Shown here piece by piece: positions 1,969 to 47,525 of a stretch of DNA of 47,525 nucleotides. Every line of letters begins with the position of its first letter. Position 1 is the stretch's first letter. Source of the stretch: a bacterium (GTDB lineage Bacteria; Armatimonadota; UBA5829); the NCBI GenBank assembly GCA_021373255.1, contig JAJFTD010000015.1, positions 1-47,525 of the forward strand. The letters run 5' to 3'. The position numbers and the translations under genes were made by a program. The notes under the pieces are model-generated. The model did no database searches. It was not told the origin of the DNA and was given only the letters and a program-made list of their open reading frames with translations.

Positions 1969-1999
1969 CGGCTTCGGCAGCTTCGCAGTCCGAAGCAAC
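1969..1999 (-). repeat. REP unit (solo), minus orientation
   Basis: On the minus strand this reads GTTGCTTCGGACTGCG and continues through AGCTGCCGAAGCCG. It is the same 31 nt unit that flanks the RAYT gene at 28929-28959 and 29558-29588. The CTTCG/CGAAG arms can form a hairpin directly after GTTG. The 3' extension (GCCGGACGCACAA) is also shared with the copy at 29558-29588. Confidence 0.8.
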
Positions 2000-19574: not shown

Positions 19575-19617
19575 AGATTTGGCGATCAATGTTGTCGAAA
19601 GTTAGCCGACGGATATA

Positions 19618-19648
19618 GTTGCTTCGGACCGCGAAGCTGCCGAAGCCG
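19618..19648 (+). repeat. REP unit inside the 212 bp element
   Basis: This reads GTTGCTTCGGACCGCG and continues through AGCTGCCGAAGCCG. Across 31 nt it is identical to the REP at 29558-29588 read on its minus strand. Confidence 0.8.
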
Positions 19649-19733
19649 ACGCCGAAGGCGGCGAGACAACGTATCACTGATAGACTAAACCTGTGAATTA
19701 TGCGAAACGTGGTCTTTTCGGCCTCTGCGAGGC

Positions 19734-19774
19734 CAGCTTCGGCAGCTCCGCTACGCTCTGCAGTCCGAAGCAAC
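19734..19774 (-). repeat. REP unit with hairpin insertion, inside the 212 bp element
   Basis: On the minus strand it starts GTTGCTTCGGACTGCAGAGC, then CGTAGCGGAGCTGCCGAAGC. Relative to the standard REP it has about ten extra bases in the hairpin. The same variant occurs at 47417-47457. Confidence 0.75.
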
Positions 19775-19815
19775 CTCAGTTTGCTCGCTAACTTTCGACA
19801 ACTATGATTTGGTGA

Positions 19816-20007
19816 TCATTCGGCTAAAGGGGAGTTCAGCGACAAATGTATCTTGAGCATACGCTTGACATAGCGGCTGGCATACTCCGGGCCTGACATT
19901 TCATTCTGTCTGCACTCCGATACGAGTTCACGTATCAGTCTTCTCTGCCCAAAGCCGAGTTTGTTGCTACGCAAGTATTGAAGCAGGTCTTCAGGAAGAT
20001 AATCCAT
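19816..20007 (-). CDS. Small basic helical protein (hypothetical)
   Basis: This 63-residue protein is not recognised. It is rich in Arg, Leu and Lys and predicted helical (MDYLPEDLLQYLRSNK...), with no membrane segment. A GAGTGAGGT ribosome site lies about 9 nt before ATG 20007, which supports it as real. It is 67 bases downstream of the WYL regulator gene on the same strand, so the two could be co-transcribed. The stop lies 13 bases beyond the TIR of the 212 bp element. It could be a small DNA- or RNA-binding factor, but nothing in the sequence proves this. Confidence 0.5.
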   Translation of the reverse strand: MDYLPEDLLQYLRSNKLGFGQRRLIRELVSECRQNEMSGPEYASRYVKRMLKIHLSLNSPLAE

Positions 20008-28285: not shown

Positions 28286-28918
28286 ATGTCCCACGGCACA
28301 AAAGTGCCGATGCCCACCCTGGAGCGGCTCGCCACTTACCTGACAGTCCTTACGGACCTCAAAATGCGAAATGTGGAAACTATCTCCTCCGCTGATATCG
28401 AGACGCGGACGGGAGTGAATGCCGCACAGTTCCGCAAAGACCTCTCATACTTCGGTGAGTTCGGCAAGCCGGGTATAGGTTATGACGTCCAGGAACTCCA
28501 TTCCCGCATCAGCAAAATTCTAAATCTTGAAAACAGGCAGCCGGTGCTCTTGATGGGTGCAGGAAACCTGGGCTCAGCACTGGCTGGATACCAACCCCTG
28601 CGAGCCGAAAACTTCCAGATAGTCGCCGCGTTCGACAACAACCCCGCCAAAATCGGCACCCAACTCTGGGACCTCACAATCAAAGACATCGCCACGATAG
28701 AGGAAGAAAACAAATTGCTCGGAGCACGAATGGGCATCATAGCAGTACCCGCAGCCGCAGCTCAAGACGCCGCTGATAGGCTGGTAAAAGCGAAAGTAGT
28801 AACTATCCTCAACTTCGCCCCCGTGCTGTTAAAGCTCCCCCCAACCGTTACTGTCCGCAACGTAGACTTCGTGCAGGAACTGGCTGTGCTGGCGTTTCAT
28901 CTGCCAGATAGTGGCTAA
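28286..28918 (+). CDS. rex: Redox-sensing transcriptional repressor Rex
   Basis: This 210-residue regulator senses the NADH/NAD+ ratio and releases DNA when NADH binds. The N-terminal winged helix (residues 1-80) holds TLERLATYLTVLTDL, the SSADIETRTGVNAAQFRKDL recognition region and SYFGEFGKPGIGY. The Rossmann fold starts with LLMGAGNLGSALAGY (about residues 91-105) and includes FDNNPAKIG. The C-terminus ends with the swapped helix (VDFVQELAVLAFHL). An AAGGA ribosome site precedes ATG 28286. It has its own promoter and a leader palindrome. The RAYT/REP element begins 11 bases after its stop. Targets usually include fermentation and respiration genes; none adjoins it except possibly the 2-hydroxyacid dehydrogenase further right. 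Confidence 0.96.
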   Translation: MSHGTKVPMPTLERLATYLTVLTDLKMRNVETISSADIETRTGVNAAQFRKDLSYFGEFGKPGIGYDVQELHSRISKILNLENRQPVLLMGAGNLGSALAGYQPLRAENFQIVAAFDNNPAKIGTQLWDLTIKDIATIEEENKLLGARMGIIAVPAAAAQDAADRLVKAKVVTILNFAPVLLKLPPTVTVRNVDFVQELAVLAFHLPDSG

Positions 28919-28928
28919 CGCGTGCCAA

Positions 28929-28959
28929 GTTGCTTCGGTCCGCGAAGCTGCCGAAGCCG
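28929..28959 (+). repeat. REP unit, left end of the RAYT element
   Basis: GTTG is followed at once by CTTCG-GTCCG-CGAAG, a perfect 5 bp hairpin (extendable by flanking GC pairs), then CTGCCGAAGCCG. A 5' tetranucleotide plus hairpin is the usual recognition layout of RAYT enzymes. Confidence 0.8.
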
Positions 28960-28983
28960 GTCCCGCAGGGGCCGCCATACAAC

Positions 28984-29466
28984 CTACCGAATGAAAATCT
29001 GCCCCCAGTCATCACAGACAAACTGCGCGTCATGATGTCCCAACACAAGTTGCCGAAAACTTGAATGCGGCCAGTCTTCAGGATTAACTACTAGCCCTTT
29101 GCGTAAGGGATTTCTGTGTAAGTAGTCTACTTTTATTCTGAGAAGAGATTCAGAGCGGACAGGCAGCACCCGTGGTCTTTCTTTCCAAAGACCACCTCCA
29201 ACTTTGATACGCGGCGCAACTTTTGAGAGAGTTCTTCGCTGGAATTTGGCAATCTGATCGCCATATTCAGACCACAGCATTATGTGGTAGTGATTCGGCA
29301 TTATCACGTATGCCAACACCTTCACCCCAATAGCATCACGTGCGGCATTCCACTCCTCGTATAGAACCGTTACAGCTTCGCCCTGCAGAAGCGGCTGCCA
29401 ATCCGATATGGTAGATGTACAGAAGTGCGCATATCCGTCTTCGTAATGGTTGTGCCATCTTGACAT
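28984..29466 (-). CDS. REP-associated tyrosine transposase (RAYT, Y1/IS200-like)
   Basis: This 160-residue single-strand transposase belongs to the HUH Y1 class. The metal-binding HUH motif is H59-Y-H61 in YVIMPNHYHIMLW, the form typical of REP-associated members. The nucleophilic tyrosine is most likely Y115 in IKVDYLHRNPLRKGLV. The C-terminus (PHSSFRQL...) follows the family pattern. It cleaves and joins single-stranded DNA at REP hairpins. The gene ends 25 bases from one REP, starts about 90 bases from an inverted REP, and matching REPs are scattered through the window. The reading frame and both motifs look intact, so the enzyme may be active. A weak GAGG ribosome site precedes ATG 29466. 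Confidence 0.9.
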   Translation of the reverse strand: MSRWHNHYEDGYAHFCTSTISDWQPLLQGEAVTVLYEEWNAARDAIGVKVLAYVIMPNHYHIMLWSEYGDQIAKFQRRTLSKVAPRIKVGGGLWKERPRVLPVRSESLLRIKVDYLHRNPLRKGLVVNPEDWPHSSFRQLVLGHHDAQFVCDDWGQIFIR

Positions 29467-29557
29467 GACAGTATAACCTCGGCAGGTGGTTAGGGGCCAA
29501 TCTGCTTCACATGTTGTGTGCTATTTGTTGCTGGCTCCATTCACGTTGTGCGTCCGG

Positions 29558-29588
29558 CGGCTTCGGCAGCTTCGCGGTCCGAAGCAAC
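29558..29588 (-). repeat. REP unit, right end of the RAYT element
   Basis: This is the inverted partner of 28929-28959, differing at one base in the hairpin loop. Its 3' extension (GCCGGACGCACAAC on the minus strand) is shared with the solo REP at 1969-1999. Confidence 0.8.
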
Positions 29589-29642
29589 TTACGTGATCTC
29601 ATTTTGAGCTGTTATAGGAATCATAATAACTCGACCCGCCGC

Positions 29643-30617
29643 TCAGTAACCTCGCTCCTTGTCGTACACATTGATCATCTCTTCACCGCTCACAAATGCG
29701 TCAAGGTTGCGTTTGAATATCTCGGCGGCACGTTCGCTGTAGCGGGCGCTGGAGCCGGCGGTGTGGGGGGTTATTATGGTGTGGGGGAGGTCATAGATTG
29801 GGCTGTCGGGCGGGAGTGGCTCGGTTGGGAAAACATCTAGAGCGGCGCCGTTGAGTTTGCCGCTTCGAAGGGCGTCACCTAGGGCATCGTGGTCTACCAT
29901 TACACCACGAGCCACATTTATCAGGTATGAGCCATCTTTCATCAGGGCGATCTCTTCGCGACCGATGAGAGCGCGGGTAACGGAGGTCAGAGGGACCACC
30001 AGCACTAGAAAGTCTGAGACCGGCAGGATTTTGTGGAGTTGATCGGGCGTGAACAGTTCGTCCACGTTGGGAATTGGTGAGTCTACTGTGCGTTTGGTCC
30101 CGACAACGCGCATATCGAATGCCTTGGCCAACCTGGCGATGTTGCTTCCGATCTTGCCGAGGCCGATTATACCGATGGTTTTGCCCGAAAGCTCGCTGCT
30201 GGTAGCGGCGAGTTCCGCGCGGTTGTAGCTGTGCTCGGCTTGCAGCATGGCGGCAGCATCGAGCCTGCGGGCAAGCGCAAGCATAATCGCGAGAACGTGC
30301 TCAGCAACCGGCACCGTGTGAATGCCGCTCATCGTGGTAACGATCACGTCGCTATGCAGGAGTTCCGGAAAGACAGTGTGGTCAATCCCCGAACTGCCGA
30401 ATTGAATCCACTTCAGGTTTCGAGCCTCGGCGAAGACCTCCGGCGTGATTCCCCAGCCGATCATCGCATCAGCATCGACTATCTCGCGCTTGATGGAGTC
30501 CAGGTCCTCACAGACTACAAAATCATGGTCTTTGAGGTAGGCCTGCAGCCGGTTTATGTAGTCATCAACTATATCACGCGATTCCAGGTGATATGCAATC
30601 CACACAACAAACTTCAC
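29643..30617 (-). CDS. D-isomer-specific 2-hydroxyacid dehydrogenase
   Basis: This protein of about 324 residues is a NAD(P)-dependent reductase of 2-keto acids. The nucleotide-binding motif is GIIGLGKIGSNIARLAKAF (about residue 140). The catalytic residues are visible: Arg in LINVARGVMVD, Glu in DVFPTEPLPPDSPIY, and His in HTIITPHTAG. The substrate (lactate, glycerate, phosphoglycerate or a sugar acid) cannot be set by motif. No C-terminal ACT domain is present, so it is not a full-length SerA. GTG 30617 is preferred: it overlaps the upstream stop as GTGA and has a GGGGACGAG site. It is coupled to the PtsI-like gene, which hints at a joint role in phosphoenolpyruvate or keto-acid metabolism. 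Confidence 0.92.
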   Translation of the reverse strand: MKFVVWIAYHLESRDIVDDYINRLQAYLKDHDFVVCEDLDSIKREIVDADAMIGWGITPEVFAEARNLKWIQFGSSGIDHTVFPELLHSDVIVTTMSGIHTVPVAEHVLAIMLALARRLDAAAMLQAEHSYNRAELAATSSELSGKTIGIIGLGKIGSNIARLAKAFDMRVVGTKRTVDSPIPNVDELFTPDQLHKILPVSDFLVLVVPLTSVTRALIGREEIALMKDGSYLINVARGVMVDHDALGDALRSGKLNGAALDVFPTEPLPPDSPIYDLPHTIITPHTAGSSARYSERAAEIFKRNLDAFVSGEEMINVYDKERGY

Positions 30618-31714
30618 TGCTCGTCCCCAATGCACCTGATAGCATATTTAGCAAAGCTGACCTTGTCCGGCAAAACGGCGATACTTCGCGCGCCTGCCCT
30701 TACAAGCAGTTCCAACGAGTCTACGTGCTTGCCGATCAGCAGCAGGACATCCTCGGGCTCCCTCCCACGAAGCCATGCACCGGCCCGCTCCTGTAGTTCG
30801 TCGTTATCGACTTGCCTTACCAACTCGGATCTACGCAGATCAAGCGTGAGGCAGCGGGTGGTAGTAAGGACGGGCGCATCACGCTCGACACCCCGGGCAA
30901 TAGTACCGATATCCACATTGGCAGCTTCGGCGTCCTGCTCGATATCAGCCAGAATGGGATCAATCGATGCGAACAGATTCTCAAACTGCGTCATTGGGAA
31001 CAGTACCGTAACCTGCCCCGGCCCCGAGTAACGTGCGGCAGCCTTGAGCAACTCACCACACGGGAAGTCCACGGCAAAGGCAAGCGGCTTGCCCGGCGCA
31101 GCTCGCATAATTGCCTTGTAGTAGTTGCTGTCTTCACTGCCGCCACGAAGGTCCATGAGCAGCCCGTCGGCACCCTCGGAGAGTGCCTGGTCTACCTCGC
31201 CTTCGTTGGCAATATATGCATATACGCACACCATCTCGCCAGCCTGTGTCCTTGCGGGTATGTGTTCGGATGATATAAATATCTTGCTGACGGACTCGCG
31301 CTGTGTCTCTATCTGCTGATAATGCATAATAGTCTGCGGGTCCGGATCTATATGCACTGTGCCGCTGTTGCCGTCGATGATCACAATATCACCGTTAGAT
31401 ACCGAGTCCAGAAGGTTCTCAGCGCCGAGCACGCATGGAACATCCGGGTTGATCCCCGGAATATCCACATCCGCCTGCGCAGCGATACCTATAGTTGACA
31501 CCCCCGGAATACGCAGCGACACACCCATTACCATGTTATCGCAGATCACCACTGCCTCGGGATAGTCCTCCGGCCTCAACCCCTGTTTGAGCGCGTGTAG
31601 ACCCTCTTCCAGAAGGTGCGGCGATACACCATTGATGCCGTTCTGAGTGTCAATAACAGCCGCCACCGCAATGGCGACCCCTTCTTTTCTTGCTTTACCT
31701 CGAATCGTTACCAT
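30614..31714 (-). CDS. Degenerate PEP-utilising enzyme (PtsI-like), catalytic His apparently missing
   Basis: This 366-residue protein resembles the second half of enzyme I of the PTS: a swivelling-domain end (VPCVLGAENLLDSVSNGDIVIIDGNSGTVHIDPDP, about residues 90-125) followed by a TIM-barrel-like region (ADGLLMDLRGGSED, FPMTQFENLFASIDPI, then GARSIAVLPDKVSFAKYAIR). The usual GG-x-x-SH-x-A-I phosphohistidine motif is not seen; the aligned stretch reads VSTIGIAAQADVDIPG. The MLPM and NLGS active-site segments also look altered. It is shorter than PtsI (about 570 residues). It is therefore probably a regulatory or repurposed paralogue. It overlaps the dehydrogenase gene by 4 nt. Assignment rests on partial sequence resemblance. 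Confidence 0.65.
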   Translation of the reverse strand: MVTIRGKARKEGVAIAVAAVIDTQNGINGVSPHLLEEGLHALKQGLRPEDYPEAVVICDNMVMGVSLRIPGVSTIGIAAQADVDIPGINPDVPCVLGAENLLDSVSNGDIVIIDGNSGTVHIDPDPQTIMHYQQIETQRESVSKIFISSEHIPARTQAGEMVCVYAYIANEGEVDQALSEGADGLLMDLRGGSEDSNYYKAIMRAAPGKPLAFAVDFPCGELLKAAARYSGPGQVTVLFPMTQFENLFASIDPILADIEQDAEAANVDIGTIARGVERDAPVLTTTRCLTLDLRRSELVRQVDNDELQERAGAWLRGREPEDVLLLIGKHVDSLELLVRAGARSIAVLPDKVSFAKYAIRCIGDEQ

Positions 31715-47382: not shown

Positions 47383-47525
47383 ATCATAGTTGTCGAAAGT
47401 TAGCGAGCAAACTGAGGTTGCTTCGGACTGCAGAGCGTAGCGGAGCTGCCGAAGCCGGCCTCGCAGAGGCCGAAAAGACCACGTTTCGCATAATTCGAAC
47501 GGTTTGGTCTATCACAATTACGTTG
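47383..47525. mobile_element. Second copy of the MITE-like REP element, cut by the window edge
   Basis: This is the reverse complement of roughly 19666-19808. From 47383 for about 115 bases I see only one mismatch, then the copies drift and share ACGTTG at the end. The TIR GTTGTCGAAAGTTAGC is at 47389-47404 and the hairpin-insertion REP at 47417-47457. The other TIR would lie past the right edge. Near-identity suggests recent movement or gene conversion. Confidence 0.8.

Follow-up and report, generated by a model that had tools for sequence, protein, structure and literature searches.

A probable REPtron with GTTG-tagged REPs in a member of the Armatimonadota

The locus and its gene product

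The stretch of DNA that we analysed (contig JAJFTD010000015.1, 47,525 nucleotides, hereafter the window) comes from a member of the Armatimonadota whose genome, labelled G000, comprises 4.19 Mb in 201 contigs. A gene for a redox-sensing repressor of the Rex type (28286–28918, plus strand; Pfam CoA_binding and Put_DNA-bind_N) and one for a D-isomer 2-hydroxyacid dehydrogenase (29643–30635, minus strand; Pfam) enclose a reading frame of 160 codons (28984–29466, minus strand) that starts with ATG and contains no internal stops. Its translation agrees with the first-pass annotation, which had described a 160-residue Y1 transposase: residues 59–61 form the HUH motif H59-Y60-H61, residue 115 is the catalytic tyrosine, and residue 94 is the tryptophan of a guide-loop motif, W94-KERPRV.

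The gene is bracketed by two inverted REPs, one at its 5′ end (GTTGCTTCGGACCGCGAAGCTGCCGAAGC; 29560–29588, minus strand) and one at its 3′ end (GTTGCTTCGGTCCGCGAAGCTGCCGAAGC; 28929–28957, plus strand), which differ by one base. They lie exactly where that annotation had placed a matching inverted pair. The two GTTG...GAAGC cores are enclosed in 33-nt inverted arms (28927–28959 and 29558–29590) that are 97% complementary, and both strands of the 29-mer are predicted to fold into hairpins as single-stranded DNA. Immediately behind the 3′ REP, a second small hairpin can be read from the sequence (CGGTCCCGCAGGGGCCG; 28958–28974, plus strand); at several RAYT (REP-associated tyrosine transposase) loci of relatives, a different perfect hairpin takes this place. 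Comparison of the flanks of REP copies further delineates a left-end extension of the element (CGCCGGACGCACAACGTGAATGGAGCC; 29531–29559, minus strand). An Rfam scan of the whole window and a plasmid search gave no match, and a sigma-70 scan around the gene gave no more matches than expected by chance.

In a sequence alignment, the surroundings of Y115 (YLHRNP) conform to the Y---NP signature, and H59, H61, Y115 and N119 are invariant in 69/69 homologues. The NCBIfam model NF047646 (REP-associated tyrosine transposase) scores the protein at 74 bits (E 1e-20), below its cut-off of 80, which is an annotation (equivalog) threshold and not a biological definition; by its sequence, the protein is a divergent relative narrowly under that threshold. 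No Pfam match was obtained at E ≤ 1e-3. A profile of eight relatives retrieved E. coli TnpAREP (PDB 4er8) at E 4e-10, with ISDra2 ranking behind. An AlphaFold2 model based on an alignment of 69 sequences reached a pLDDT of 95 and was used in place of one based on 8 sequences, for which the pLDDT was 70 and the fold search uninformative. Its best PDB match in Foldseek was again 4er8 (E 2.8e-10, TM 0.79/0.77), followed by the ISDra2 and IS608 transposases. Judged by its motifs and predicted fold, the protein is a RAYT (TnpAREP), and by analogy it would work like TnpAREP.

A tree built from 91 homologues of numerous phyla places the window RAYT in a ten-member Armatimonadota clade (SH-aLRT 98) nested within a fifteen-member one (99); E. 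coli is the sole named reference in this tree and sits on a long branch, which bears on placement among RAYT groups 1–5. Relatives beyond the ten-member clade are at most about 37% identical to the window RAYT. Every named relative of the subfamily is a MAG from the Armatimonadota, and the clade appears, as far as found, to be restricted to this phylum. Five genomes of the survey below (G005, G016, G017, G018 and G024) are probably among these MAGs, since the coordinates of their matches are identical. RAYTs and REPs beyond Proteobacteria are already on record from Cyanobacteria, Bacteroidetes, Planctomycetes, Verrucomicrobia and Chloroflexi. The lineage had been called notable on first reading, and the host is indeed a non-proteobacterium with dispersed REPs; given the published cases, the lineage by itself is moderately notable.

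REPs in the host genome and across the phylum

The REP core pattern has four matches in the window at ≤3 mismatches versus none in 100 dinucleotide shuffles. Throughout the host genome, the 31-mer occurs 40 times at ≤3 mismatches and the pattern GTTGCTTCGG-N(4-30)-CCGAAGC 82 times, the reversed control giving 0 in either case. These pattern searches set a lower bound, since composite elements (see below) break contigs. The census bears out the dispersed REPs of the first-pass annotation, which had proposed a genome-wide count. Sorted by loop, the 82 copies comprise window-type REPs, of which 43 are 29-mers and 17 are longer variants, together with 12 copies of a type named after contig C118 (TTGCAYGCAG), 9 of the C9/G005 type (YATCCTGATG) and 1 reverse-reading match. 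Within the window, a solo-type copy (1971–1999, minus strand), found by pattern search and intergenic by its position among the ORFs, is joined by a copy at 19618–19646 (plus strand) and its 39-nt partner at 19736–19774 (minus strand), which share one composite element; all three lie between long ORFs. A further long variant (47417–47455, plus strand) belongs to a composite element that is truncated where the contig stops. The left-end extension (CGCCGGACGCAC, ≤3 mismatches) accompanies 17 of the 22 non-composite 29-nt copies read, a set that includes the window 5′ REP.

Across 291 Armatimonadota genomes, we recorded subfamily RAYTs at E ≤ 1e-20 and scored REPs as present from five copies upwards. 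A subfamily RAYT was found in 11 genomes, or 10 without a weak match in G034, and GTTG-tagged REPs in 10: the host (82 copies), G004 (12), G005 (140), G017 (70), G018 (51), G048 (8), G236 (5), G237 (8), G238 (6) and G239 (8). Six genomes contain both (10 with REPs and 10 with a RAYT, of 291; Fisher p = 5e-8, or 2e-9 with the GATN-tagged sister clade left out); these counts are uncorrected for shared ancestry, and the six genomes span four families (f1, f2, f3 and f22). The congeners G001–G003 have neither RAYT nor REP.

Each RAYT, those of G004 and G237 included, is flanked by a REP that also occurs in dispersed form in its genome, as the dominant type or as one of those listed. Cognate REPs are TATCCTGATG in G005, with 123 exact copies, TAGCCTGCTG in G018 and CTGCTTGTCTG in G017. 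Over ten REP types, the hairpin is paired in 100% of cells, with double changes at three pairs, and 0 of 500 shuffles attained as high a covariation score. The REP is cognate to the RAYT across relatives. A lack of correlation between the two had been named at the outset as the outcome that would count against a REP–RAYT system; what we find is that the two occur together far more often than by chance (p about 5e-8) and that the REP type follows the RAYT.

Four REP-positive genomes (G048, G236, G238 and G239, all of family f22) have no detected subfamily RAYT; they adjoin the RAYT-positive G237 within f22 and contain other RAYT-like genes or none. Their REPs are possibly orphans left after RAYT loss. 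Loss of the RAYT or incomplete assembly would explain such genomes, as would persistence of REPs independently of a RAYT.

The settings of the REPs vary among these relatives. Most REPs read in G017 (L325–L344) lie between the two arms of a longer palindrome and form its centre (TAGCCCGGATTATGCATCAGCA|REP|CTGCTGATGCATAATCCGGGCTA), and in G018 the REP is accompanied by a second hairpin. G005 (L275–L304, L345–L364) contains direct tandem arrays in which the flank is duplicated and the spacer is often a copy of what lies directly downstream and ends in TTA or TTG; from their sequence, these arrays look like local duplications of a REP plus its flank. Tandems of REPs and REPINs are known from Pseudomonas (PMC3116915).

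The tag and the loop predicted to read it

The published tag of REPs is GT[AG]G (PMC6006769, PMC3733652). Both REPs that flank the window RAYT, and those at the RAYT ends of its relatives, carry GTTG, which departs from this canonical form. The initial description of GTTG plus hairpin as the usual target layout therefore does not hold; GTTG is the unusual part. A literature search returned nothing on REP-associated transposases with Armatimonadetes or Armatimonadota, nor on GTTG together with RAYT.

A second tag occurs in a sister clade formed by the RAYTs of G016, G024 and G223 (SH-aLRT 87), all of which have a one-residue insertion just before W94. These RAYTs are flanked by REPs tagged GATC, GATA or GATG, which are also dispersed, with 122 copies in G016, 187 in G024 and 9 in G223; the GATN pattern has mostly 0–12 matches in control genomes. 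The 31 matches in G018 belong mainly to a separate repeat family, GATGCTTCGGCTTGTAGTTCAAAGCCGAAG. On these sequences, the GTTG/GATN split has moderate support in the tree.

In 4er8, the positions that read GTAG are W94, Q95, E100, H101 and R104 (PMC6006769). The aligned positions here hold W, K, V, L/F/I and a variable residue, respectively; the clade motif WKERPRV replaces the GTAG-reading residues of the E. coli enzyme, and none of Q95, E100 and H101 is kept in the window clade. Subclass 2.2 is defined by W[QE] and YIHYNP, in place of which we find WK and Y[ILV]H[RNA]NP. Judged from the alignments, tag and loop have changed together, and we infer that the altered loop reads the new tag. In Marinomonas, a guide rule links GTAG to CT or CA and GTGG to CC (PMC8266576); extended to GTTG by our own reading, this rule would predict cleavage at CA. 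In G005, 48 of 76 REP copies are followed by CT, which is at odds with that prediction.

With these results in hand, we consider it likely that the window locus is a REPtron, that is, a RAYT (TnpAREP) gene with its own REP on either side, and that it belongs to a GTTG clade restricted to the Armatimonadota. Directly supported here are the anatomy, the fold family, the match between REP and RAYT in different genomes and the way in which the tag varies along with the protein clade. As a member of the RAYT/REPtron class, the locus has the catalysis motif, the fold, the flanking cognate REPs and their dispersal, and it departs from the class in its tag and in scoring under the NCBIfam cut-off. By analogy with the chemistry of TnpAREP and of the IS200/IS605 family, the RAYT would recognise GTTG at the base of the folded REP, cut beside it by means of Y115 and rejoin the ends in single-stranded DNA. 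REPs, singly or in pairs, and now and then the entire REP–gene–REP unit might in this way be copied or moved without target duplication.

Gene copies, miniatures and mobility

The host genome contains three copies of the subfamily: the window gene, a gene split over the ends of contigs C118 and C102, whose halves overlap by 64 bases, and a broken copy on C9. The C9 copy is a pseudogene, and the nearest paralogue of the window gene is 56% identical to it. The C118/C102 RAYT has given rise to six derivatives of about 190 bp by internal deletion (two each on C26 and C130, one on C140 and one on C127, the last cut by the contig end). They retain both REP ends along with the two extremities of the RAYT gene (its first codons and final bases), the middle having been lost, and the deletion junction corresponds to a direct repeat of about 15 bp that is present in the full gene. 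The left joint reads TTTA|GTTG in 6/6 readable cases (five derivatives and the C118 gene copy) and the right joint of C118-type copies mostly CAAC|AA; no target duplication was seen. In G005, 41 of 76 REPs have TTA ahead of them, compared with a background of 1.8%. By their sequence, the TTTA and TTA joints would fit Y1 transposition at T-rich sites. The six internal-deletion derivatives of the second RAYT copy argue for an IS-like mobility of the unit.

For the window copy itself, an empty site at rex was sought in four congeners, which have no RAYT at that position and none of which offered a usable site; because the gene order beside rex is not conserved in these congeners, a precise insertion is not demonstrable. 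The first-pass annotation had called the locus a complete single-gene element. The anatomy is fairly described by this phrase; the evidence for mobility comes from the sister copy on C118/C102 and its miniatures.

These observations bear on an alternative that shares the family and the cognate REPs with the REPtron reading and differs from it only on gene movement, namely that the RAYT is domesticated and immobile and serves a host function in DNA structure or regulation, with REPs being slowly copied in trans. The low copy number of the gene would agree with this, as would the published statement that evidence for a mobility of tnpAREP is lacking (PMC8266576), and differing RAYT locations between genomes could reflect rearrangement and loss. 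Against it stand the presence of three diverged members of the subfamily, including a pseudogene, within a single genome, six two-ended deletion derivatives at separate sites, and a patchy distribution over 10 or 11 of 291 genomes. We regard domestication as unlikely, though it is the alternative that retains most weight.

A broader reading of the REPtron, which we put forward tentatively as one that may well prove wrong, is that one Armatimonadota clade of RAYTs consists of still-mobile, IS-like units that generate MITE- or REPIN-like derivatives by internal deletion and in which the guide tag (GTTG, GATN) and the reading loop have changed together. If true, they would provide a natural series that illustrates both how a transposon turns into a domesticated RAYT and how tag recognition is re-coded. 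Published work on TnpAREP concerns proteobacterial GTAG-reading enzymes, and the co-evolution of tag, cleavage site and enzyme is open (PMC8266576). Since sister clades within one phylum combine different tags with matching loop changes, tag swapping becomes testable on natural pairs. The miniatures with gene vestiges would likewise bear on whether RAYT units move and on how REP pairs are born.

Composite elements as a second route of spread

Some REPs of the host lie within elements of another kind. The composite element at 19588–19805 has terminal inverted repeats (TIRs; AATGTTGTCGAAAGTTAGC and its reverse complement), contains a REP pair and is flanked by GATTTGGYGATC, a 12-bp target duplication with one mismatch (19576–19587 and 19806–19817). 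Such elements measure about 215 bp, have the TIR GTTGTCGAAAGTTAGC, 12-bp GAT...ATC duplications and palindromic targets, and enclose an inverted REP pair; their inner segment occurs in both orientations. MITE-like composites in the window span 19576–19817 and 47389–47525. In the host genome, composites with a REP pair occupy about 15 or more sites, often contig ends, and a strict TIR test assigned 7 of the 29 window-type 29-mers read with their flanks to them. We searched for an autonomous partner of the composite element and found none.

The TIRs and 12-bp duplications are the mark of another transposase, which makes the REPs inside hitchhikers, and as many REPs reside in a TIR element, their dispersal is not due to the RAYT alone. 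Taken further, REPs might be spread mainly as cargo by that other transposase, the RAYT being a passenger or a domesticated relic between two of them. Besides the composites, the central position of most REPs read in the G017 palindromes would suit this scheme. The TIRs, however, are missing from 22 of the 29 window-type 29-mers read, the dispersed REPs of relatives have flanks of their own and no such TIR, the REP loop sequence tracks each genome's RAYT, and the miniatures hold vestiges of the RAYT gene and no TIR. We therefore judge spread chiefly as cargo improbable.

Comparison with known systems

The REPtron of the window resembles class 2 REPtrons (E. coli TnpAREP, 4er8; group 2 of Bertels, equivalent to subclass 2.2) in its HUH motif and single tyrosine with Y---NP, its length of about 160 residues, the inverted cognate REPs at both ends, the dispersed intergenic REPs, and a mismatch or bulge in the stem of the window-type REP. 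It differs from 4er8 in having about 23% identity over the structural alignment, GTTG in place of GTAG and W-K in place of W-Q/E, and from class 2 REPtrons in the second hairpin that follows the REP at many RAYT ends here. With the TnpAY1 of subclass 2.6 and class 3 (PMC6006769) it shares the occurrence of RAYT-like genes in other phyla, flanking structures with tags other than GT[AG]G and dispersed copies, but it has a strong canonical stem and a constant GTTG or GATN foot, and the Y and W motifs differ.

TIRYTs and TIRtrons (PMC3733652) offer a precedent in REP units fused, at the ends of RAYTs, to unrelated stem-loops (P. putida, P. fluorescens); unlike most TIRYTs, the window RAYT is too short for a C-terminal HTH domain and its ends are true REPs with dispersed cognates. 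REPINs (PMC3116915) are likewise inverted REP pairs acting as miniature mobile units, for which tandem arrays that include the flank have also been reported. In contrast to REPINs, the C118-type miniatures still hold the initial codons and final bases of the RAYT, so that their origin by internal deletion is plain to see, and solos or direct tandems account for many of the REPs here and in relatives.

The similarities to the IS200/IS605 family (IS608, ISDra2), which include the Y1 fold, the single-strand logic and a T-rich or TTA-type left joint without target duplication, together with the single hairpin-bounded gene and its miniature derivatives, might suggest a true insertion sequence with a subclass 1.1 TnpA and subterminal hairpins that are merely REP-like, but this is very improbable and largely refuted by sequence class: YLHRNP is the Y---NP signature of class 2 RAYTs and not Y---Q, tnpB is absent, the NCBIfam name is REP-associated and the fold is nearest to 4er8, ahead of the ISDra2 and IS608 structures, the element ends in two inversely oriented copies of one hairpin and not in two hairpins of the same orientation, identical gene copies are lacking (nearest paralogue 56%), and solo REPs far outnumber gene copies. 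We reject membership in IS200/IS605 on the Y motif and the end architecture.

Further repeats were noted in passing. A GCGAAA-rich block, AATCGCGACAGCGCGAAAGGGCGAAAACGCGAAAAGGGACGAAGAGATAACGTA, lies upstream of many solo REPs (e.g., L033, L036, L039 and L042) and seems to represent a separate repeat family. The same phylum-specific group includes a second RAYT lineage (L256 on contig C82 of the host, L253 in G017 and L254 in G018), on whose flanks lies a different GTTG-tagged hairpin, GTTGTTTCGGG...CCCGAAAC, which recurs elsewhere in the genome.
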